A stretch of 64,000 bases of DNA, taken from assembly GCF_001659685.2 (NCBI RefSeq), contig NZ_LXYE02000001.1:124001-188000 (forward strand), given 5' to 3'. The position numbers were made by a program, and so were the translations under genes. Below the pieces are notes generated by a model that made no database searches, was not told the origin of the DNA, and saw only the letters and a list, made by a program, of their open reading frames with translations. Position 1 is the first letter of the stretch. The number at the start of each line of letters is the position of its first letter. This DNA comes from Labilibacter marinus. GTDB lineage: Bacteria; Bacteroidota; Bacteroidia; Bacteroidales; Marinilabiliaceae. Shown here piece after piece: positions 18,799 through 63,765 of this stretch.

Positions 18799-20409
18799 TT
18801 ATAGTATGGCGTTATTCACTTGTAAATCGCTTACCATTTTGGTTTTAAAATAAGAGATGGATTCTTTTAACTGCTCTGATTGGCTAGCTAATTCTTCTGC
18901 ACTGCTTGCCAACTCTTCACTGGCAGATGCATTTTGCTGTGTAATACCACTAAACTGAAGAATGGCATTGTTTATTTCATTAGCTCCTTTATTCTGTTCT
19001 GTACTTCCCGCAGAAATTTCTTCAACCAAATCTGTGCTTTTTTCAACTTTTGGAATGGTAGCCTGAAGCTCGGTGTTGGTTTCTTGGGTTAATTTATAAC
19101 TTTTCTCAGCAAGACTTACTATCTTATCAGCTGCAGTTTTACTTCTTTCGGCAAGTTTTCGTACTTCAGCTGCTACCACAGAAAAACCTCTCCCTGCTTC
19201 TCCTGCGCGTGCTGCTTCAACAGCTGCATTTAATGCCAGTATATTGGTTTGGAAGGCAATATCGTTAATGATTGATATGTTTTCTGAAATAATTTTGCTT
19301 GCCTCAGAGGCTTCCTGTGTAATGGCAGATAGTTGCATTATACTATTATTAGCATCGGTTGAGATATTTACAGCGGATTTAGAATTGGCACTATTTTGCT
19401 CAATGTTTGCGGCCATTTCTTCCATGGTTGATGATACTTCCTCAATGGATGATGCCTGTTCATTGGCTCCTTCTGATATGGTTTGCGAAGTGCCACTTAA
19501 TTGCTCACTTGCTGAAGCTATTTGTTCTGATCCAACTATGATTTCTGAAATTACTGTACGGAATTTTTCTATCATTGAATTCATGCTTTGAGATAGGACC
19601 CCAATTTCATCCTTTGAAACTACGTTTATAGATACGTCTAAATCACCTTCGGCGACTAATTTTACTTTTTCAACTACCTCAATTATTGGATTGGATATTT
19701 TTTTGCCAATAACGAATGATATTAATGTAGCTACAACTAGAATAAGGATTACAGATATTAAAAACGAATATAGAATTCTTCTCATTGCGGCTTTATTTTC
19801 TTGTTCTTTGCTTTTGACAATGGTTTGAATTTCATCGATATAGTTTCCTGTTCCTACTACTAAGTTAAATGGTTCGTAGTATTTACTATAACTCCTTTTA
19901 GGGAAAGCATCGCCTCCACCTGCTTTAGGAAACCAATAATCCGTATATCCACCACCTTGTATTCCAGCATTAATAATATTTTGAATAAATAGGTTTTTTC
20001 GAGCATCTACTGCATTGTATCTATTTTGTCCTTCAGCATCTTTCCCAAGTAATACAATACAGTTGCCATCTTTGTCATCGGCCCAAAAGTAGCCACTTTC
20101 ACCATACCTAATATCTCTGAGTGTGTTAATGGCAAGTGATTTGGCTTCATCTGCGCTAATTTCTCCCGTTTTGTGCAGGTGATTAAATCTTTCAAACATG
20201 GAAATAACAGTTTCAACTTCTTGTTTAACCATTAAATCAAAGTCTTCAAGCAAGGTGTTGGCAATCATTTCAACATCTTTTTTTTGCTTGCTAGTGTTTA
20301 AAACGTAAAAAATAATTCCTCCAATTAGCCCCACGAATAAACCACAACTTATAGCTAGTAGTACAATTTTATTAGCAACCTTCTTCATTTTAGTGTGTAT
20401 TAGTTTCAA
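18799..20409 (-). CDS. methyl-accepting chemotaxis protein with single Cache sensor
   Basis: A 536-residue transmembrane chemoreceptor. TM1 is at about 13-34; the periplasmic part is a Cache type-2 domain ([14 protein letters not shown], then a [14 protein letters not shown] end); TM2 is at about 207-232; then HAMP and a long signalling domain whose tip is [24 protein letters not shown]. Cache_2 domains usually bind small organic ligands. It lies inside a kinase/regulator block, separated from the upstream regulator gene by 131 bases containing a large palindrome. There are no che genes in the window, so its output partner is unknown. Confidence 0.93.
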
Positions 20410-49033: not shown

Positions 49034-50017
49034 ATGGTTGCTTATTTATGGCTCTTTTTGTTGGGAGTGGTATGTTTTTGTGTATGGTTGTTTCTAAAAA
49101 ACAAGAAACTTAAAAAATTAGTTGAATCTCATCTACATTTTCCTCAAATAGAAAAGGAAGTATCCGCTAAGGATACTCTTAGTGATGAAAAGCAGCAAGA
49201 GATGGAGCGTTTGTCCATTGTAGCTAAGCAAACAGATAATGCTATTATGATTATGGATCCTAAGGGAAATATACAATGGATCAATAATGGTTTTACACGA
49301 ATGTATGAATATACTTTTGAGGAGTTTACTCGTTTAAGAGGAACTAATATTTTACAAACGAGTTTTAATCCTCTTGTGCGACAAAGTATTGAGCAATGCC
49401 TCCATACCAAAGAACCTGCATATTACGAGGCCATTAACAAAATGCCTTCGGGCAAAGAAATTTGGACCCATACTTCGCTTTCACCTGTTTTAAACGAACA
49501 AGGAGATATTATCAATTTAGTTGCGGTTGATTCTGATATTAGTAAAAGAAAGGAAGCTGGAGATGCCTTAGTACAACGCGTAGAGGTGTTGACCGATAAG
49601 ATTGCTATTTTATCACAACAGCAAAATAGTTTGAATACCTATACGCATAATTTAATGGATGAGGTAAGCGCTTCCAATTCGAAAATTCACGAAACGGATC
49701 AAATTATTAATTTTATCAAAGATATGTCGGATAAGATTAAGTTAATGGGATTAAATGCATCAATTGAGGCGCAACGTGTAGGTGAAGGAGGAAGCGGTTT
49801 TAGGGTAATTTCTGGTGAGATTGTACAAATGTCGGATTTAACCAAACGTTATTCTCATGAGATTTCTGAAATTATTCAACAGATTCAAGATTCTTCCAAA
49901 ACACTCCATGCCGGAAAAGAACTCGTGGCAGAAGCTTCTCATAAATATGAAAAAACAGTAAAAGAACTCAAGCAAGAGGTGAGTTTAGTTCATCAAGTGG
50001 TGGCAGAATTAAACTAA
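49034..50017 (+). CDS. PAS-domain protein with MCP-like signalling region
   Basis: A 327-residue protein with one N-terminal TM segment (about 3-22), a PAS/PAC domain (about 55-175; AIMIMDPKGNIQWINNGFTRM, NLVAVDSDISKRKEA), and a C-terminal coiled coil that resembles a chemoreceptor hairpin (LMGLNASIEAQRVGEGGSGFRVI, in place of the usual [14 protein letters not shown]...GFAVVA). The hairpin is divergent and short, so it may not reach a CheA/CheW array. No che genes are near; role unknown. Confidence 0.82.
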   Translation: MVAYLWLFLLGVVCFCVWLFLKNKKLKKLVESHLHFPQIEKEVSAKDTLSDEKQQEMERLSIVAKQTDNAIMIMDPKGNIQWINNGFTRMYEYTFEEFTRLRGTNILQTSFNPLVRQSIEQCLHTKEPAYYEAINKMPSGKEIWTHTSLSPVLNEQGDIINLVAVDSDISKRKEAGDALVQRVEVLTDKIAILSQQQNSLNTYTHNLMDEVSASNSKIHETDQIINFIKDMSDKIKLMGLNASIEAQRVGEGGSGFRVISGEIVQMSDLTKRYSHEISEIIQQIQDSSKTLHAGKELVAEASHKYEKTVKELKQEVSLVHQVVAELN

Positions 50018-53405: not shown

Positions 53406-54533
53406 ATGAATAGCTCCGAGGATAAAAGTATTTGTTTTGTTATACCGCACTTTGTTACTTTTAGTACGGGTGGCGCTGAAATACAGATACATTACCTTAC
53501 GCAGTCTTTTATTAAAAGAGGATGGAAGGTTGAAGTGATATGTGCAGGTCTTGGATTAGAGCAGAGGATGAAGGCATCGCCCTTCTATAACGGAGCTATC
53601 ACTTACCATTATTACAAAAAAAGAACCATCCGTTTTATGGAATATTGGGATGTGTTAAAACTGCTCAAGTTAACTAATTGTAACTATTATTATCAACGAA
53701 CAGACTTTGCTTTAACAGCAGCTACATATTCATTTGCAAAAAGAAACAGAAAAAAAATGGTATTCGCTTTAGCGAGCGATTCTGATGCGGAAAGAAACAA
53801 GTATAGCAAGGCATTCAAGCAATTTAAATATACCGGAATCGTAAAGAAACTAGTTAGGAAAGTAGATTTTAAGGTGTTGGATAAAATGATTGAATGGGCA
53901 AAATCAGGAGTCAAGCATGTAGTGTTTCAAAACGAATATCAAGCACAAACATATCTAACAAACTTCAATAAAAAGGGCGTGATTATTCCAAATTCGTTTT
54001 TGCCGAGTAATCAGGAATCAACCACTAAAGAAAATGTGATATTGTGGTGTGGAAATGACAGTCCGGTAAAACGACCACAATTATTCGTGGATTTGGCCAA
54101 GCAGTTGTCCGACTTTAAGGATTGGACTTTTGTAATGATAGGTTCAGCTTGCAATCAAATTAACGAAAAGAATATATCTGCTAATTTGAAGGTTCTTGGA
54201 TCTGTAAGTTATCAGGAAGCGAATAACTGGTTTGCTAAATCTAAGATTTATATAAATACTAGTGAAGTTGAGGGAATGCCAAATACTTTTATTCAGTCAT
54301 GGTATTACGAAACACTTGTATGTAGCTTATCTGTTGATCCGAATGCTTGTTTCTCGAATGAAAATACAGGAATATTTGCTGACGATGACTTAAATGAAAT
54401 GTACCAGGTGTTAAAAGATATCATGCAGAAAGGTGTGAATGAGCAAATAATTACAAATGGAACAAAGTACTTTAAAATGTATTTTGATTTAGAGCAGAAT
54501 ACGGAAAAATTAATCAATTATATTACGGCTTAA
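53406..54533 (+). CDS. glycosyltransferase family 4
   Basis: A 375-residue GT-B enzyme. The N-terminal Rossmann domain (FVIPHFVTFSTGGAEIQIHYL) and the C-terminal nucleotide-sugar domain (ILWCGNDSPVKRPQLFVDLA, INTSEVEGMPNTFIQSWYYE, the EGxPxxxxE-like loop of GT4) are clear. It adds a sugar to the lipid-linked repeat unit; the donor is unknown. Begins 12 bases after wzc. Confidence 0.9.
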   Translation: MNSSEDKSICFVIPHFVTFSTGGAEIQIHYLTQSFIKRGWKVEVICAGLGLEQRMKASPFYNGAITYHYYKKRTIRFMEYWDVLKLLKLTNCNYYYQRTDFALTAATYSFAKRNRKKMVFALASDSDAERNKYSKAFKQFKYTGIVKKLVRKVDFKVLDKMIEWAKSGVKHVVFQNEYQAQTYLTNFNKKGVIIPNSFLPSNQESTTKENVILWCGNDSPVKRPQLFVDLAKQLSDFKDWTFVMIGSACNQINEKNISANLKVLGSVSYQEANNWFAKSKIYINTSEVEGMPNTFIQSWYYETLVCSLSVDPNACFSNENTGIFADDDLNEMYQVLKDIMQKGVNEQIITNGTKYFKMYFDLEQNTEKLINYITA

Positions 54534-54553
54534 ATAAAATCTTAAAGAGCAAC

Positions 54554-55804
54554 ATGAAAGTACTTCAATTATGTGGTAAAGATTTTTTTGGTGCAGGAAG
54601 AGCTGCCTATCGATTGCATAAGGGCTTGCTAAATGCAGGTGTTGATAGTGTAATGTGGGTGGGTGCCAAAAGAACAAAGGACGACACAGTAATTGATATT
54701 CAGAAAAGTAACTATAAAAAAAAACTAACCAAGGTATATGTAAATCTTGAAAAATTAATAATAAAAGGTTCGGCAGGAGGGGCAACGGAGATGTTTTCCT
54801 TGGGGTATCCAGCGCATGGAATTCGTAAAAAGATAGAGCATGAAAAGCCAGACTTAATTCATATACATTGGATAAATAGAGGATTTTTTAATTTAAGAGA
54901 CTTACAAAAATTGAATATTCCCATTGTTATATCTTTACATGATATGTGGTGGTATACAGGCGGCTGTCATTACGATGAAGAATGTGGTGCTTATGTCAGA
55001 GGCTGTGAATCATGTCCCGTTTTAAAAAAAGATGCTCAGCAAGGATTAAGTTATCGTCAGTTAAGGGCTAAGAAAGGAATATTGCAAACCACCAAACATC
55101 TTACATTTATAGGTTTAAGCGCATGGATGAAAGACTGTGTTTCTGAAAGCTTAATAGGTAAAGAACATCAGGTAGTAGGTTTACCCAATGGTATTGATAC
55201 AAATAAGTTTAAACCTTTGCACAAGGATGAATGTCGAGAAAAGTTAGGACTTCCTAAGAATAAAAAGCTAATCATGTTTGCTGCAGTAGACGTTTTGTCA
55301 GAATCCCGCAAAGGATATCGTTATATTAGCGAGGCCTTAAAGAAACTAAATAACGATAAATATGAGTTGGTGGTTATTGGCGAAAAGAGTCAGGAAACTA
55401 CCATTGGTGGATTAAAAACATATTTTTTAGGTGAAATAAATGATGACCAGTTAATGATTGAGTATATGTCGTCTGTAGATGTTGCGGTAGTCCCATCCTT
55501 ACAAGAAAACCTTTCAAATCTAATTATGGAAAGTTTATCTTGTGGAACACCTGTTGTAGCTTTTAAGATTGGAGGAAATGGTGATATGATTCAGCATCAA
55601 AAAAATGGTTACTTGGCGGAAGATAAGAACGTAACTGATTTAGCAAAGGGGATTGAATATTGCACGATAGATGAATATCAAGAAGCTTTGTCAAATAGTG
55701 CAAGGCAAAATGTTCTCGATCATTTTAATATAAGGGATATTGCCCCAAAGTATATCGATTTATATCAATCTATCATTAAAAACATATCAGGTAATAATGC
55801 TTAA
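54554..55804 (+). CDS. glycosyltransferase family 4
   Basis: A 416-residue GT-B enzyme. The N-terminal half contains a Cys-rich acceptor-binding region (HDMWWYTGGCHYDEECGAYV, CESCPVLKKD), typical of a GT4 subgroup in Bacteroidota. The C-terminal domain has FAAVDVLSESRKGYRYISEA, VVIGEKSQE and the ENLSNLIMESLSCGTPVVAF donor loop. Overlaps the polymerase gene by 8 bases. Confidence 0.92.
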   Translation: MKVLQLCGKDFFGAGRAAYRLHKGLLNAGVDSVMWVGAKRTKDDTVIDIQKSNYKKKLTKVYVNLEKLIIKGSAGGATEMFSLGYPAHGIRKKIEHEKPDLIHIHWINRGFFNLRDLQKLNIPIVISLHDMWWYTGGCHYDEECGAYVRGCESCPVLKKDAQQGLSYRQLRAKKGILQTTKHLTFIGLSAWMKDCVSESLIGKEHQVVGLPNGIDTNKFKPLHKDECREKLGLPKNKKLIMFAAVDVLSESRKGYRYISEALKKLNNDKYELVVIGEKSQETTIGGLKTYFLGEINDDQLMIEYMSSVDVAVVPSLQENLSNLIMESLSCGTPVVAFKIGGNGDMIQHQKNGYLAEDKNVTDLAKGIEYCTIDEYQEALSNSARQNVLDHFNIRDIAPKYIDLYQSIIKNISGNNA

Positions 55805-57023
55805 TCTTTCAAAAATAACGGACTATATTCTGATATACCTGATGATTGCATTTTCGGGTATTCCTTTTTTTTATAAGGCACATATAGCTATGATGATTGC
55901 ATTTTTGGCCATCCCAGCGTTGGTATTTGCTATTCGTAAAAGAAAGATTGACCGTTATTTTGTTATTTATGTGGTGGTTCTTATTTGTATTCAACTTGGA
56001 CAAACACTTAAGTTTTACGACTTACCTATAGCTACTTACATTGGGATGCATGTGCGGGTTATGTTTGCCTATCTTACTATAAAAGCTGTTGGAAGGAAAA
56101 CTGTTGATTACTATATCGATATCATGGTGTTTTCGGTATTGGCTAGTTTGGTGTTTTACTTGAGTTCGTATATCGGACCTGTTGAGCGATTTATGGAAGG
56201 TACCATAGCTCCATTATTTGAAAACCCGCTGATTAAAGAATCTAACTATAAGGTATGGCCTAATATTATTCTGTACACCTTTAATTCGCAGGGAGAAGGG
56301 CTTGTATTGCTTAAGCGTAACTCAGGTCCATTCTGGGAACCAGGTGCTTTTTCGGGATTTTTAATTGTTGCTTTACTATTTAGTATTATTAAAACGGGGA
56401 AGCTACATACCCGAAAAAATAGAATTCTTATGCTGGGCGTTATTACCACATTTTCTACTTCGGGATTAGTGGTGGTGGTTGGTCTGATTATCTTCTATCT
56501 GTTAATTAATAAAAATAGTACGCTGCGATATATTATGATTCCGTTGGTCGTTGTAACAGGCTTAATTGCTTTTTTTAGCCTCAACTTTTTGGGTAATAAA
56601 ATCATTCAAAAGATGAGCTACTCTAGTGCTACTTATAATACTCGCTTTAAAAGTGCAGAGATAGATTTTTATGATTTCTTGAAGCATCCATTAATTGGTA
56701 TGGGGCGTTCGGAAGATACACGCTTTCAAGGAGAGAAAGAAGCCCGAACGATTCACCGTAATAATGGCGTTACTAATCATTTGGTCATGTACGGAGGAAT
56801 CGCTTTTATCCTTTATTTTTACTTGATGTACCTAGGATTTCGTAGAATGTGTATAGCCTACGAAGTAGATAAACGGATGGCTTTTTTCGCTATTGTTACT
56901 ATATTTCTGATTGGGTTTTCACAAGTTTATTTTATTAAAGTTTTTTTCATTGCACTGACTTTGTTTCCTGTGTTATACAATGATGATACGAATTCAATAG
57001 AAAACCATGTTAGCACTAATTGA
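55797..57023 (+). CDS. O-antigen/exopolysaccharide polymerase (Wzy-like)
   Basis: A 408-residue inner-membrane protein with about ten helices. Between late helices it has the large periplasmic loop with the Wzy-type signature (YNTRFKSAEIDFYDFLKHPLIGMGRSED). It polymerises repeat units at the periplasmic face. I chose ATG 55797 over an in-frame ATG at 55740, which overlaps the preceding GT more. Confidence 0.85.
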   Translation: MLNLSKITDYILIYLMIAFSGIPFFYKAHIAMMIAFLAIPALVFAIRKRKIDRYFVIYVVVLICIQLGQTLKFYDLPIATYIGMHVRVMFAYLTIKAVGRKTVDYYIDIMVFSVLASLVFYLSSYIGPVERFMEGTIAPLFENPLIKESNYKVWPNIILYTFNSQGEGLVLLKRNSGPFWEPGAFSGFLIVALLFSIIKTGKLHTRKNRILMLGVITTFSTSGLVVVVGLIIFYLLINKNSTLRYIMIPLVVVTGLIAFFSLNFLGNKIIQKMSYSSATYNTRFKSAEIDFYDFLKHPLIGMGRSEDTRFQGEKEARTIHRNNGVTNHLVMYGGIAFILYFYLMYLGFRRMCIAYEVDKRMAFFAIVTIFLIGFSQVYFIKVFFIALTLFPVLYNDDTNSIENHVSTN

Positions 57024-57027
57024 TGGT

Positions 57028-57900
57028 ATGAAGATATTTGTTGTAATAGCTGTTTTTAACAGAAAAGAATATACCCATCAATGCATCCAATTGCTCCAAC
57101 AGCAAAGCATTAAGAATATTGGTATTGTTATCGTTGATGATGGTTCCACAGATGGCACTTCAGAAGAAATCAAAGCCAAGTATCCTGAAGTGAATGTAGT
57201 AAAAGGAACAGGTGATTGGTGGTGGACTAAATCCATGAATGAAGGTTGCAAGGCTGCTATTAAGTTTGGTGCTGATACTATTATCACTTTAAATAATGAT
57301 ACCTATTTTGCACCTACGTTAATAGAGAGTTTAGTAAAGCATCATCATAACAAACAGAAGGCTATCATCGGTTCTTTAAATCTTGTAAAAAAAGAAAAGG
57401 AGTATATATTCTTTTCGGGGGTAAAGGATATTGTTTGGTGGAAGGCTAAGGAAGTTAAATATCATAAAGCATTTACGCCTCTTACTAATAGTTTAAGCGG
57501 ACTGTATAATAGTAAATGTTTAAATGGACGAGGAACTTTAATTCCAGTATCTATTTTTAAGGAAGTAGAAGGTTATAACGAACAACTGCCACAATATGCA
57601 TCTGATTATGATTTAACCTTGCGTATTCAAGAAGCCGGTTACGACGCTTATATCAGTTATGACTCTCCCGTTTATTCTTATATTGAAGAAACAGGAGGAG
57701 GAAAGAGTTTTGTAAAGCAATCTAGTTGGTCTTTCTTTCAATCATTTAATAATGCTTATGCACAAACGAGCCTTAAAATGTGGTTCAGATATTATAAATC
57801 TCACGCTCCCAAATCAGTCTTTTTATTAGGTTTTGCAATGCAACAACTAAGGGCGGTTTATGCTTTTTATAAAAAACGAAATACGCTATCTAAAATATGA
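57028..57900 (+). CDS. glycosyltransferase family 2
   Basis: A 290-residue GT-A enzyme. VVIAVFNRKEYTHQCIQLL opens the Rossmann-like core, IVIVDDGSTDGT carries the nucleotide-binding Asp, TLNNDT is the DxD-like metal motif (NND), and NGRGTLIPVSIF is the acceptor loop, as in rhamnosyltransferase-type GT2 proteins. ATG 57028 is chosen over ATG 57007, because homology starts there. Overlaps the next gene by 4 bases. Confidence 0.9.
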   Translation: MKIFVVIAVFNRKEYTHQCIQLLQQQSIKNIGIVIVDDGSTDGTSEEIKAKYPEVNVVKGTGDWWWTKSMNEGCKAAIKFGADTIITLNNDTYFAPTLIESLVKHHHNKQKAIIGSLNLVKKEKEYIFFSGVKDIVWWKAKEVKYHKAFTPLTNSLSGLYNSKCLNGRGTLIPVSIFKEVEGYNEQLPQYASDYDLTLRIQEAGYDAYISYDSPVYSYIEETGGGKSFVKQSSWSFFQSFNNAYAQTSLKMWFRYYKSHAPKSVFLLGFAMQQLRAVYAFYKKRNTLSKI

Positions 57901-58862
57901 TATCATTTATAATTATTGGTAGGAATGAGGGCTGGCGTTTAGAGTTATGCTTAACAAGTACGGTGAAAGTTTTAACTGATGGTCAACTGGATGCTGAAAT
58001 CATATATGTAGATTCTAAATCGACAGATGATAGTATAAAAGTCGCCAATCAGTTTTCTGAAGTAAATACTTTTTTAATTACAGGAAGATACAACGCGGCC
58101 ATTGCACGAAATATTGGAGTTAAAGAATCTAAAGGAGATAGTTTAATATTTCTGGATGGCGATATGGAAGTAAATCCTGATTTTTTGAATTTAATTTTAG
58201 ATGAGCAGGGCGTACTAAAACATGATTTTGTTTCAGGTAATTTTATGAATTACTATTACGATGTGGATGGTAATTTTTTACGAAAGGATTTTTACAGAAA
58301 GATTTATTGTGAAAAGGATACGCTCCAGAATACAACCGGAGGATTATTTGCTGTCAAGCGCTCCGTTTGGGATAGTGTTGGAGGAATGCGTAATATGTTT
58401 AAAAAAGGGCAGGATTTAGATTTTGGCTACCGTTTGGCTTTAAAAGGAATTCCGCTTTTAAGGAAAAAGGAATTGATGGCAAATCATCATACCATAGACT
58501 ATAATGATACCAGTAGATTATGGCGTTCTTTTATTGATGGAAGATATCTTTATACACGATCTGTGCTTTATAGGAGTAACTTTTACAACAAGTATGTAAT
58601 TAAAAGAATGCTGACGAGTGACCCAACTTGGTTGTTACTTATTGGAATGATTGTATTAGCTGCGCTGACTCATCAAGTATGGCCATTTATGGTGTACGGA
58701 TTTTTAACCGCTATTGCGGTTGCTTATAACATGCGAAAGGGTAGTTTTGTATCTTATCCAAACAGACTCATAAACCATATGTGTCGTGATTTATATAGCC
58801 TGTTTGCATTTATTTTTATCTATCCAAAAAGAAAGTTAAAACTAAAGTATAAGCGGGTTTGA
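57897..58862 (+). CDS. glycosyltransferase family 2, membrane-associated
   Basis: A 321-residue GT-A enzyme: FIIIGRNEGWRLELCL, IYVDSKSTDDS (substrate Asp), FLDGDMEV (DxD) and the GQDLDFGYRLALKG acceptor motif. Two hydrophobic helices near the C-terminus (about 242-280) attach it to the membrane. It is the last gene of the cluster in this window; no Wzx flippase or initiating transferase is seen. Confidence 0.9.
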   Translation: MISFIIIGRNEGWRLELCLTSTVKVLTDGQLDAEIIYVDSKSTDDSIKVANQFSEVNTFLITGRYNAAIARNIGVKESKGDSLIFLDGDMEVNPDFLNLILDEQGVLKHDFVSGNFMNYYYDVDGNFLRKDFYRKIYCEKDTLQNTTGGLFAVKRSVWDSVGGMRNMFKKGQDLDFGYRLALKGIPLLRKKELMANHHTIDYNDTSRLWRSFIDGRYLYTRSVLYRSNFYNKYVIKRMLTSDPTWLLLIGMIVLAALTHQVWPFMVYGFLTAIAVAYNMRKGSFVSYPNRLINHMCRDLYSLFAFIFIYPKRKLKLKYKRV

Positions 58863-58901: not shown

Positions 58902-59732
58902 CTAATATACTTTAGGTACGTATGTTTGTTCATCCTTAGGAGGTCGAATGTAATTATCCTTGTCTTGTAATTCAGGAAGTTCTAATTTTTCGTAAGAAAC
59001 TTTCTTGTACGGAATCTTCGATAATAAATGAGAAATACAGTTTAAACGAGCTTTCTTTTTATCATCACCATCTACCACAAACCAAGGTGCTTTCTTGGTA
59101 TCTGTATACTGAAACATTTTATCCTTGGCCAAAGAATAATCTACCCAATGGGTGCGTGAAGCCATATCCATGGGACTAATTTTCCATCGTTTCAAGGGTG
59201 TTTTAATGCGCTCCGAAAATCGTTTTTCTTGCTCCTCATCGCTTACAGAGAACCAATATTTAATGAGTGTGATACCAGATCGAATAAGCATGCGCTCAAA
59301 TTCAGGGCAGGAACGAAAAAACTCTTCATATTCATCATCAGAGCAAAATTTCATCACCTTTTCTACTCCCGCACGATTATACCAACTACGGTCAAAGATA
59401 ACCATTTCGCCAGCAGCGGGAAGGTGAGAAACATAGCGTTGAAAGTGCCATTGGGTTTTCTCTCGCTCGGTAGGAACAGGTAGGGCTACCGTTTTAACAA
59501 TACGCGGATTCAAGGGTTGGGTAATGCGCTTGATGGCACCTCCTTTACCGGCAGCATCTCGGCCTTCAAAAATTACTACAACTTTTAAGCCTTTGTGTTT
59601 TATCCACTCTTGTAGTTTTACTAATTCAAGCTGTAAACGTTCCAGTTCATTAAAGTAATACTCTTTATCCAGTTTCCCATTCTCTTGGTAGATAGGTTCT
59701 ACTTTCTTTTTTTTATGATTCCCGTTACCCAT
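58902..59732 (-). CDS. ppk2: polyphosphate kinase 2 family protein
   Basis: A 276-residue PPK2-family enzyme that uses polyphosphate to phosphorylate nucleotides (or the reverse). Walker A is FEGRDAAGKGGAIKR (GRDAAGKGG at 57-65), Walker B-like FDRSWYNRAG at 113-122, and the lid has SDEEQEKRFSERIKTPLKRWK. It matches the single-domain class; class I (diphosphate) is likely from its length, but the direction is not certain. Stand-alone, convergent with the exopolysaccharide cluster. Confidence 0.94.
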   Translation of the reverse strand: MGNGNHKKKKVEPIYQENGKLDKEYYFNELERLQLELVKLQEWIKHKGLKVVVIFEGRDAAGKGGAIKRITQPLNPRIVKTVALPVPTEREKTQWHFQRYVSHLPAAGEMVIFDRSWYNRAGVEKVMKFCSDDEYEEFFRSCPEFERMLIRSGITLIKYWFSVSDEEQEKRFSERIKTPLKRWKISPMDMASRTHWVDYSLAKDKMFQYTDTKKAPWFVVDGDDKKKARLNCISHLLSKIPYKKVSYEKLELPELQDKDNYIRPPKDEQTYVPKVY

Positions 59733-59851: not shown

Positions 59852-61711
59852 TTATATATCCATCAGATACATATCTTCTTGATTTATTTTAAATTCGGAA
59901 TCATGTAGTGTTTGTGATTCATTTAACGCTAATGTACTTGTTTTCTGATTAAGTTGTTGAATCGCATTATTCATTTCATCTACTGCATCCGAAACTTTTA
60001 AGAACAGATCAGAGGCTTTTTTACATTTATCTGTCGACGATTTTAGTTTAGTCTCTGTAATATCAAAATACTGTTTTACTTCTATAGAATTACTTTTAAT
60101 TTTCTGCGTTTCAAGAGTCGTATTTTCAGCAAGCTTTTTTACCTCACTTGCCACTACTGCAAATCCTTTTCCTACATTACCCGCTTTAGCTGCTTCAATA
60201 GCCGCATTGAGCGATAAAATGTTAGTTTGAACCGAAACCGCTTGAATGGTATTTGCTATTCCATCAAATTTTTCAACGAGTTTACCTTGTTTTACAAAGG
60301 CTGCTTCAAGTTCATCAAATTCACCCTTTAGTTCTTTAAAAATTAGCAACATGTCGCTAATCGATTTAAACTTTTTATGTAATTCAGTAATGGTTTCCGA
60401 TACCGAAGTTGAGATATTTAGAATAACGGAACTTTTAAAATAATGGCAATTTTCCTTCTTATTAAAACCATTAAATATAGCAGTTGCCATATCTTCGCAC
60501 GAACCATATCCACACGAACAGCAATTATACACTTCTTTTTCAGAGGATTTATTCAATGTTTTATAAATCTCCCATTTCTCTGTTTCACTCGGAATCAATA
60601 TGGTATTATTGGAGCTTTTATCAATATATGACCTATTGTACAAACCTTCTTCCCAAAAACTATTCACTGTTCTTGAAAATACTTTTTTCCCCTTTCGATT
60701 ATTATACTCGGCAATCATTGTATTTTTTCTGGCTTCAATCAATGATTCAATTCTATCCAATGATTTATCATGCGTTAAAGTCCCTGGGCCTCCATTACAC
60801 CCGTGGTGGCAATTCAAACAGTCTATTAGTAATGGGGCAATTCCATTTTCTATATCTGCAGGTAAGTTATCCAAGTAATCGTAAATAACTTCCTTTCCTT
60901 CTATTTTTCTGGTTTTGTCTACTATTTCAGGAACTTCTCTGCAAGCGGTTCTTAATAATCCTCCAGGTGTAGAGAACAATACTGCACGTTCGGCAGGAGG
61001 GTTATCAAAATCGATTGGAGAAAAATCGAAAAGGTTAATCTTATTTGAGGTAAAGTATTGGTTAAAAGATGCAAAAGTTACATTTAAAATGTCGTATTCA
61101 CTATCTTCAAATTCTCTGGTTTTAGCCAAACAAGGCGATACAACAATAAACTTATAATCGGCGTACTCACTATAGAATTCCTTTACCATTTTAATGGTGT
61201 GTAACATGGGACTGTCTGCAGGGGCGAGGTATTTAATTAGCTCGGGTTTATACAATTCAATGTATGAAACAATGGCAGGGCATGGTTGGGCAATAACTGA
61301 CTTAGGCTCAGATTTAAGATGTTCTAGATACGATTTAACGGTAAGTTCAGCACCAAAACTTACATCAAAAATGGCTTTAATACCAATACTCTTTAACCAT
61401 CCATTAAACTCGTTGTAAGCTCCCGGGAAACTTGCTGCAATGGCAGGCGCTACAATGGCCACGTACTTATCGCCTTTGGATAAATTTTCAAATAGCAAAT
61501 CAAAATCATCTTTTGGAACCCTGGCATCGTGTTTACAAGCAGGTATGCAACTAGCGCAAGCAATACATAAATCGCTATTAATTGACATGTGATTGCCTTT
61601 GTCTATGTTACAGAATTTTACAGGACAAGCAGTTATGCAGGCATGACAGTTAACACATTTTTCTTCATCAACAAAAATAACTTTCTTTAAAGGATAAGTT
61701 TCTGTACTCAT
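59852..61711 (-). CDS. soluble [FeFe]-hydrogenase-like sensor fused to a chemoreceptor signalling domain
   Basis: A 619-residue cytosolic protein with no TM. Two [4Fe-4S] ferredoxin motifs (Cys19/22/25/29 and 49/52/55/59) lead to an [FeFe]-hydrogenase H-cluster domain (about 80-330) retaining the four cluster ligands: Cys144 (QPCP), Cys193 (SPCLAK), Cys301 and Cys305 (NCHHGC). The proton-transfer Cys of the TSCCP motif is Pro here. A further Fe-S motif (CCSCGYGSC, 397-405) precedes an MCP hairpin ([20 protein letters not shown] and on, about 440-590). Such domains sense H2 or redox state; here the output is the chemoreceptor. I use ATG 61711; upstream extension has only TTG. Confidence 0.9.
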
Positions 61712-61864: not shown

Positions 61865-62584
61865 TTAAGTTAGAAAGTTTTCATCAATATATTTCTGAAA
61901 AGCCTCTTTATATTGCTCACTTACAGGAATACGAACATCTTCGTTAAAGATGATACGCATACGTTCTATGGTGGTAATTTTTTTGAGATTAACAATGTAG
62001 GAGCGATGCACACGCATAAAGCTATTGTGCGGTAGCTTCTCCATCAGCTTTTTAAAGCTCAATAAGGTAATAACAGGTTTTTGGTTGGATAGATGAATAC
62101 GAACATATTCGCGCATTCCCTCAATATAGGTGATGTTTTTAAGCTCTACGCGAATGATTTTGTACTCCGATTTAATAAACAAATAATCGTTATTGCCTTT
62201 TAATTCTTCGGTTGATTTATTTTCCTGAGAAAGACGTTGTTTGGCTTTATCCACAGCAGTGATAAAGTTATCGTATCCAATGGGCTTTAAGATATAATCG
62301 ATGGCGTTAACTTTAAATCCATCCAGTGCGTATTCACTATAGGCAGTGGTGAAAATGATACCGATGTTTTGTTTGAGAGATTTGGCAAAATCCATACCCG
62401 ATAACTCGGGCATATTAATATCTACAAATAGTAAATCTACCTCGTTATTATCCAACACCTCGTAAGCCGATGTTGCACTACTTAAAGCAGCCACTAACTC
62501 TAAGGAGGGAGTTCGTTCTATGTAGCTCGAAATCTGTTTTAAGGCCAGTGGCTCATCATCAATAGCAACGCACTTTATAATCAT
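61865..62584 (-). CDS. LytTR response regulator
   Basis: A 239-residue regulator: receiver domain (3-120) with Asp55 in LFVDINMPE and the Lys in YILKPIGYD; LytTR DNA-binding domain (about 140-238; SFMRVHRSYIVNLKKIT). Its start overlaps the upstream sensor kinase gene by 4 bases, so the two form a translationally coupled pair. Confidence 0.95.
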   Translation of the reverse strand: MIIKCVAIDDEPLALKQISSYIERTPSLELVAALSSATSAYEVLDNNEVDLLFVDINMPELSGMDFAKSLKQNIGIIFTTAYSEYALDGFKVNAIDYILKPIGYDNFITAVDKAKQRLSQENKSTEELKGNNDYLFIKSEYKIIRVELKNITYIEGMREYVRIHLSNQKPVITLLSFKKLMEKLPHNSFMRVHRSYIVNLKKITTIERMRIIFNEDVRIPVSEQYKEAFQKYIDENFLT

Positions 62585-63714
62585 ATTGGTAATTTAATAA
62601 TGCTTGAATAAATTTTATCGCTTTGGTTTACTTCCCAAATGTACTTATCGCCATAGTACAAGTCAAGTCTTTTGCGCGTATTTACTAATCCAATACCACT
62701 ACTTTCGGCCTGTGGTAATGATACCTCTGCCTGTTTGCAGTTGCTGCAGTCCACCACTAAGTAGTTATCTTTAACGGTAATACTTAAATGGATAAAACAG
62801 TTTTTATTGATGGCAGCTCCATGCTTAAATGCATTCTCTAAAATAGTAATAAATACAAATGGCGGAATAGATATTTTTGGCGTTACCTCTGGAAATTTAA
62901 GTTTCACCTCCAATTCATCTGAATAACGCATTCGCATCAGGTTGGTATAACTTTTAATAAACTCAATTTCCTTTTCCAAGGAAGTCTTTTTATCTTCTTT
63001 TTCGTACAGCAAATAACGAAGCATATGTGATAATCCAACAATAGAATGCTGCGCATCTTTGGGCGCCAATTCAACCAATGCATGAATATTATTTAATGTA
63101 TTCATTAAAAAATGGGGACTAATTTGATGCTTTAAAAAAGCTAATTCAGCCTGTAGTTTTTCTTCGCTTAGCTGATGTCTTAAACGCTCTTCGTTCACTA
63201 GCCTGCCTGCCTGTTTAATAGCCGTGTTAAATCCAACTACCATGGCAGCTAAAAGCATAGTGTTTAGGTAACGAATAAAAATACCTTTTCCCGGTGGTGC
63301 CATTCCTGCTCTAAAGGTCTCCAAATTCTGACCGCGAGGAGGTCTACTTAAAGGAGAAAAACCAGATCCGTGAGGACGCACATTAGGTCCTAGTGGCTGC
63401 AGATTATCGGGTAGCGGAATAAGTTCGTGCAATTGCCTTATAAGGGCTGGATGACTTAAACCAAGGATTAAAATACCAGTAATGCTAAAATACCAAATGT
63501 ATTTTTTCTTGAATAATAGATGTGGTGTAAGCCATTTGTTATTGATAAAAAATATAAGAAAAAACGGAAGCATTGAAGCTAAATCGTGCATTACCTTGTA
63601 CCATTGAATCTCGTCGTTTCTTTCGGATAAAAAAGTGACAAAGGTGACTAGAATAGTCCATACAGCTAGGTATATGATATTTTCTATTTGTTTGTGTTTA
63701 AGTGTTGTTTTCAT
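62581..63714 (-). CDS. LytS-type sensor histidine kinase
   Basis: A 377-residue membrane kinase. Four hydrophobic segments occupy about residues 10-180, with a Gly/Pro/Arg-rich loop (PLGPNVRPHGSGFSPLSRPPRG). The His_kinase domain has QISPHFLMNTLNNIHAL (phospho-His) and a HATPase domain with ILENAFKHGA and SSGIGLVNTRKRLDLYYG. ATG 63714 is chosen over ATG 63765 (adds 17 polar residues). It forms a pair with the following LytTR regulator. Confidence 0.91.
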   Translation of the reverse strand: MKTTLKHKQIENIIYLAVWTILVTFVTFLSERNDEIQWYKVMHDLASMLPFFLIFFINNKWLTPHLLFKKKYIWYFSITGILILGLSHPALIRQLHELIPLPDNLQPLGPNVRPHGSGFSPLSRPPRGQNLETFRAGMAPPGKGIFIRYLNTMLLAAMVVGFNTAIKQAGRLVNEERLRHQLSEEKLQAELAFLKHQISPHFLMNTLNNIHALVELAPKDAQHSIVGLSHMLRYLLYEKEDKKTSLEKEIEFIKSYTNLMRMRYSDELEVKLKFPEVTPKISIPPFVFITILENAFKHGAAINKNCFIHLSITVKDNYLVVDCSNCKQAEVSLPQAESSGIGLVNTRKRLDLYYGDKYIWEVNQSDKIYSSIIKLPI

Positions 63715-63765
63715 CGGTTGTTTTTGTTCAATAGATAAGGTGATAAGATCAAAGTCAATAGTCAT

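Follow-up and report, generated by a model that had tools for sequence, protein, structure and literature searches.

The window analysed here, a stretch of 64,000 nucleotides from Labilibacter marinus (contig NZ_LXYE02000001.1, positions 124,001 to 188,000), encodes a fusion protein in which an [FeFe]-hydrogenase-like sensor and the signalling hairpin of a methyl-accepting chemotaxis protein (MCP) are joined in a single chain. The reading that we favour, and on balance consider probable, is that of a stand-alone soluble signal transducer of the HydDB [FeFe] group C2 kind, based on an H-cluster and signalling via CheA and CheW. Judged from its sequence, the protein is most likely a sensor of H2 or of redox state that would feed CheA/CheW, and its altered H domain probably senses rather than catalyses. 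It is a member, in Bacteroidota, of an already known putative class, since group C2 is already listed and the sensory proline has already been published.

The order of parts that a sequence-only reading of the window had proposed (two ferredoxin clusters, an H domain, a further Fe-S motif and a chemoreceptor hairpin in one chain) was confirmed by Pfam, alignment and fold match. In the Pfam scan the ferredoxin motifs, Fe_hyd_lg_C and MCPsignal scored above their cut-offs and the FeS domain below its own, and no PAS family, the mark of the HydS type of group C, was found at E <= 0.01. The C-terminal Cx2Cx4Cx16C motif that marks the sensory [FeFe] groups C and D is present, and so is an antiparallel hairpin with a conserved tip, as expected of an MCP signalling domain. 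In the predicted model the H domain fold matches CbA5H and CpI, and the hairpin, which begins straight after the last cluster cysteine, C422, consists of helices 423-509 and 511-618; its tip is 34% identical to the E. coli core signalling unit 6s1k_E (1.5 Å over 102 residues), with aa 494-517 corresponding to the CheA/CheW contact region of known receptors. The hydropathy score stays below 1.6 in every 19-residue window, and no membrane segment is predicted. Neither spurious domain calls nor a wrong reading frame can account for this arrangement, since full-length homologs have the identical domain order.

The partners of such a protein, expected beforehand to lie outside the window, are indeed encoded elsewhere in the same genome (a 6.03-Mb assembly, 99.78% complete). 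HydG, HydE and HydF are found on contigs C49, C30 and C65, each above its curated cut-off. Contig C13 carries CheA, two CheW, CheB, CheR, CheD and a CheY-like regulator, and contig C11 a second CheA and a CheW with an MCP, giving two CheA and three CheW in the genome. There are 24 MCPsignal matches, the window protein included, and the genome also encodes GldL, which belongs to the motor of gliding and type IX secretion.

The altered pocket of the H domain

Four cysteines of the H domain, C144, C194, C301 and C305, align with the H-cluster ligands of known enzymes, in agreement with the fold match; with HydE, HydF and HydG present as well, neither of the two observations that the sequence-only reading had named as telling against it, missing maturases and misaligned cysteines, was made. 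Three of its ligand positions (144, 301 and 305) stand, the fourth, given as 193, being a slip by one. As it had also proposed, the proton-transfer cysteine (CpI C299), the mark of catalytic group A, is absent and replaced by Pro143, in 48 of 48 family members.

For CpI positions 353 and 497 (Table 1) the numbering is that of PMC10055695 and PMC8163306, and the residues were assigned by motif on the alignments. Besides Pro143, the eight ferredoxin cysteines (C19, C22, C25 and C29; C49, C52, C55 and C59), the extra C34, C144, S167, S192, C194, K197, C298, L299, C301, C305 and the four C-terminal cysteines are identical in all 48 members. In catalytic enzymes the counterpart of Lys197 holds a [2Fe] cyanide. 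The 48 comprise the window protein, 15 proteins from relatives' genomes and named contigs, five from the profile scan of the window's phylum and the best 30 spirochaete-phylum loci minus three repeats; since these are the best-scoring matches, with broken copies left out (two from genome G009, one from contig C58 of G033), the invariance is somewhat flattered. A decaying hydrogenase was ruled out for the window gene because ligands and pocket are unchanged in 48/48.

That the protein is a working hydrogenase, with the MCP hairpin as a mere scaffold, strikes us as very improbable. All ligands and Lys197 are present, which would fit such an enzyme, but Pro143, Ser192 and Leu299 argue against it, as does the resemblance of the hairpin tip to the E. 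coli core unit. The segment where the E279/E282/R286 relay lies is, moreover, shorter than in the solved enzymes, as judged from alignment gaps.

A missing proton-transfer cysteine is usual among sensory [FeFe] proteins (PMC10055695, PMC8163306); at the C299 position, 17% of sensory sequences have Cys, about 43% Ala and about 10% Pro (PMC10055695).

Family distribution and partner genes

Close matches (E below 1e-140) were found in 9 of 61 genomes (the own genome and 60 relatives), one of which, G009, has broken copies only, and a genome of the same genus (G008) encodes a homolog 65% identical. Scanning the contigs of named genomes gave eight loci, from Plebeiobacterium sediminum, two Bacteroidales, three Spirochaetes/Spirochaetales, one Treponema and one Chitinispirillum; the P. 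sediminum homolog is likewise 65% identical. With a core profile (A3) built from 16 sequences and counted at E <= 1e-100, the family was detected in 6 of 395 genomes sampled from the phylum of the window, the own genome among them, versus 87 of 392 in a spirochaete phylum (that of the Treponema genome G459), which rules it out as a Bacteroidota marker. A 2012 study of termite-gut treponemes by Ballor reportedly described hydrogen sensors, with mention of methylation and chemotaxis; those sensors possibly belong to the same family, which is common in the phylum of Treponema. Broken copies with one internal stop each are found in G033 (contig C58, 126417-128204) and in G009 (contigs C5 and C9), and the gene is therefore sometimes lost.

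In a quick tree the 48 members are separated by one branch (Shimodaira-Hasegawa-like approximate likelihood ratio test, SH-aLRT, 100) from 18 further H-domain sequences of the own and related genomes. Their outputs are MCP hairpins in 44 members (37 recognised by motif and seven with variant tips read from sequence; all 8 that were put through a Pfam scan match MCPsignal). The other four (L075, L091, L092 and L099) have the same H core with PAS plus SpoIIE phosphatase in three, by Pfam, and with PAS plus a hybrid histidine kinase (kinase plus receiver) in one, L099, which was read from sequence and is cut by the locus end. This variety bears on the possibility of a non-motility output, compatible with the other readings, in which the receptor would work through another Che pathway, for instance that of the CheA/CheW/MCP set of contig C11, controlling expression, biofilm or polysaccharide production. 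We regard it as a real, if lesser, possibility: the two separate CheA sets and the phosphatase and kinase outputs of related cores fit it, whereas GldL and the 24 MCPsignal matches suggest directed movement and the window receptor is assigned to neither Che set.

Among 21 genomes taken as carriers, HydG lies above its cut-off in 18 (all except G042, G046 and G111), HydF in 20 (all except G111) and CheW is present in 21; leaving out G009 gives 17/20, 19/20 and 20/20. Of 14 named control genomes, Thermotoga maritima is the only one with HydG and HydF above cut-off, and seven have CheW. A different reading is that of a redox (energy) sensor, whose H-cluster would equilibrate with the ferredoxin pool via the two N-terminal clusters and which would report internal redox, not H2. 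The two ferredoxin motifs and the H domain in one chain, the receptor without a membrane segment, and two bifurcating-type hydrogenase sets in the own genome, which would tie H2 to ferredoxin, are all in keeping with it. We nonetheless consider it unlikely, as a plain ferredoxin-type sensor would need neither ligands constant in 48/48 nor the maturases found in carriers, and the genes next to the window gene include none for an electron carrier.

The own genome has seven Fe_hyd_lg_C matches, the window protein included, one other of which passes the group B1 model's cut-off. As read from the translations, the others are the two bifurcating-type HydA, adjoining NuoE/NuoF-like genes, a 456-aa H-domain protein that has a C-terminal cluster motif, and two proteins that look like [FeFe] sensors, at L008 (10385-15983, contig C4) and L010 (8279-12933, contig C40). 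The tails of these two resemble PAS, a phosphatase-like gene comes after each of them, and they carry His and Ala, respectively, at the Pro143 position.

The earlier proposal of a sensor coupled to a chemoreceptor is supported as the best reading; that H2 would be the signal, and not redox state or a different gas, is what we infer. Several points weigh against an H-cluster-based transducer signalling via CheA and CheW. H2 binding, the [2Fe] subcluster content and the CheW contact of the fusion protein are putative. The HydG and CheW counts cover carriers and 14 unmatched control genomes, and the carriers include G009, which holds HydG, HydF and CheW alongside its broken copies. Genome G111 (locus L097), 99% complete and with ligands intact, has neither HydG nor HydF, which points either to an uncommon type of cluster or to a gap in the assembly, and G042 and G046 are without HydG but have HydF. 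Four carriers (G046, G052, G220 and G460) have the H core with a non-MCP output, so CheW in them says nothing for MCP coupling. In the literature, PMC9431212 discarded the group C2 matches of acetogens by its own checks, and an M497L variant of a prototypical enzyme was without a properly integrated [2Fe] subcluster (PMC10055695), leucine being the residue of the fusion protein at that position. Finally, the strict methylation motif was not found in the window fusion protein.

Genome G111 and the M497L variant would also suit a site that senses O2, NO, CO or iron-sulfur status with a different cluster or with no more than the [4Fe-4S] half of the H-cluster, as would the invariance of Leu299 and the two extra invariant cysteines, C34 and C298. 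We hold this to be improbable: HydF is kept in 20/21 carriers, Lys197 is invariant, and TamHydS of Thermoanaerobacter mathranii is active while also carrying Leu at 497 and Ser at 353 (PMC8163306).

The chemoreceptor hairpin and the surroundings of the gene

Methylation was scored by the strict motif [ASTG]2-x2-[EQ]2-x2-[ASTG]2, a simplification of the CheR/CheB consensus sites, which shuffled tails of the window protein carry in 20 of 1000 cases. The motif occurs in 17 of 20 other own-genome receptors examined (of 23 other MCPsignal matches) and in 18 of 43 scored family hairpins (L114, missed by the tip motif, was unscored); by branch, the score is 0/4 in the window's own (P0001, L082, L083 and L087) and 1/4 in another Bacteroidota branch (L084, L085, L086 and L072). 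Because the motif is a simplification, this suggests rather than proves that the window receptor is not methylated. Across the family the distance from the last cluster cysteine to the tip is stepwise (79, 87, 91-92, 96, 126, 138-140, 147, 165-168 and 191 residues), as expected if the sensor is rigidly joined to hairpins of set length.

Other receptor-like frames lie in the window. One of 327 aa at 49034-50017 (+), with a PAS-like start read from sequence and a degenerate MCP tip GLNASIEAQRVGEGGSGF, matches MCPsignal above cut-off (1.4e-18) and is without the methylation motif; the frame at 18799-20409 (-) is an ordinary membrane chemoreceptor of 536 aa, with two hydrophobic windows and several methylation motifs.

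Table 1. The fusion gene, its parts and its neighbours (positions in the window)
Feature	Position	Strand	Basis
Whole gene, [FeFe]-hydrogenase-like sensor/chemoreceptor, 619 aa	59852..61711	-	ATG at 61711; full-length homologs
Two [4Fe-4S] ferredoxin motifs, aa 13-63	61523..61675	-	Pfam Fer4 families
H domain (Fe_hyd_lg_C), aa 82-309	60785..61468	-	Pfam 1.1e-28; also located by genome-wide scan
Motif L1, Q-P143-C144-P; ligand C144; Pro143 at proton-transfer Cys position	61277..61288	-	Alignments
Motif L2, S192-P-C194-xx-K197; ligand C194; Ser192 at CpI Met353 position	61121..61138	-	Alignments
Motif L3, D-C298-L299-N-C301-xx-G-C305-N-x-G; ligands C301, C305; Leu299 at CpI Met497 position; extra Cys298	60788..60823	-	Alignments
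C-terminal cluster motif C397-x2-C400-x4-C405-x16-C422	60446..60523	-	Alignment; Pfam FeS under cut-off
MCP signalling hairpin, aa 423-618	59858..60445	-	MCPsignal 1.1e-23 (Pfam); structure comparison
Hairpin tip, aa 494-517	60161..60232	-	Similarity to 6s1k_E
Upstream neighbour, LytTR response regulator	61865..62584	-	Pfam; similar gene in 1/15 other loci (L083)
Upstream neighbour, His_kinase/GHKL-type histidine kinase	62581..63765	-	Pfam; similar gene in 1/15 other loci (L083)
Downstream neighbour, polyphosphate kinase 2 (PPK2)	58902..59732	-	Pfam; 0/15 other loci

A conserved flanking gene was sought over 16 loci, some of them short (5.7-12 kb), and none was found, which rules out an operon partner over the loci compared. 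Genes common to several loci (one in L073, for example) match signalling or receptor genes, and gene order is shared only between L070 and L071, two close relatives. Further along the window, a run of glycosyltransferase- and polymerase-like frames at 53406-58862 (+), read from translations, resembles a polysaccharide locus.

Known sensors and a proposed signalling route

HydDB lists [FeFe] group C2 as 'Chemotactic (putative)', a role that is proposed only (PMC5037454). The group is that of a sensory [FeFe] hydrogenase tied to methyl-accepting chemotaxis, and the window protein has MCPsignal in the same chain; the available description, however, does not mention a fusion, and the window protein is likened to C2 by its MCP module. 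HydS of Thermotoga maritima also has an H domain without the proton-transfer cysteine, accessory clusters and a signalling tail (PMC10055695), but it ends in PAS and has Ala, Gly and Ser at 299, 353 and 497, where the window protein has Pro, Ser and Leu (PMC10055695, PMC8163306). TamHydS, of group D, shares with the window protein not only Ser 353 and Leu 497 but exactly the Cx2Cx4Cx16C spacing reported for M2e/M2f in groups D and C (PMC8163306); it differs in that no output domain is described for it in the available text and in that H2 does not reduce its C-terminal cluster (PMC8163306, PMC13104023). An H2-induced secondary-structure change is mentioned for TamHydS as well (PMC13104023), and a conformational relay is therefore favoured over a redox relay. 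The soluble chemoreceptor 3g67 of T. maritima and the E. coli receptor core unit 6s1k have a similar hairpin fold and tip, but are without a hydrogenase-type sensor, and the window hairpin differs from them in being without the consensus methylation motif.

If the fusion protein is an H-cluster-based transducer, HydE, HydF and HydG would build the cluster on C144, C194, C301 and C305. Binding of H2, or the redox state conveyed via the two N-terminal clusters, would change the state of the H-cluster without fast turnover, which would be prevented by Pro143 in place of the proton-transfer cysteine and by Ser and Leu at the Met353 and Met497 positions. A conformational shift may then pass to the C-terminal cluster domain, where, in the modelled geometry, C422 precedes the long helix to the MCP tip. 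The tip would join the CheA/CheW arrays of the genome and alter CheA activity, the output most likely being gliding or another Che-controlled behaviour; as the consensus methylation motif is missing, adaptation of the receptor may be slight or follow an unusual route. A more specific version, which we offer as speculation and think rather doubtful, is that the invariant Pro143/Ser192/Leu299/Cys298 pocket represents an H-cluster tuned for signalling, not turnover, and coupled rigidly to the helix of the chemoreceptor by way of the C-terminal cluster domain, and that, acting on CheA in the lineage of the window, it would be an H2 receptor with no methylation and little adaptation by which gliding Bacteroidota are steered to or from H2.

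The fusion protein is a good test case and not a new kind. Its candidate additions to the C2 class are the pocket signature Pro/Ser/Leu with Cys298 and Cys34, the exchange of outputs on a shared core, the absence of the methylation motif from the window's branch and a genome with the partners. Together with its phosphatase and histidine kinase relatives it would offer a direct assay, by way of the kinase activity of CheA, and outputs ready to be swapped; if the favoured reading is true, anaerobic Bacteroidota and spirochaetes would have in it a soluble receptor that guides their behaviour by H2.
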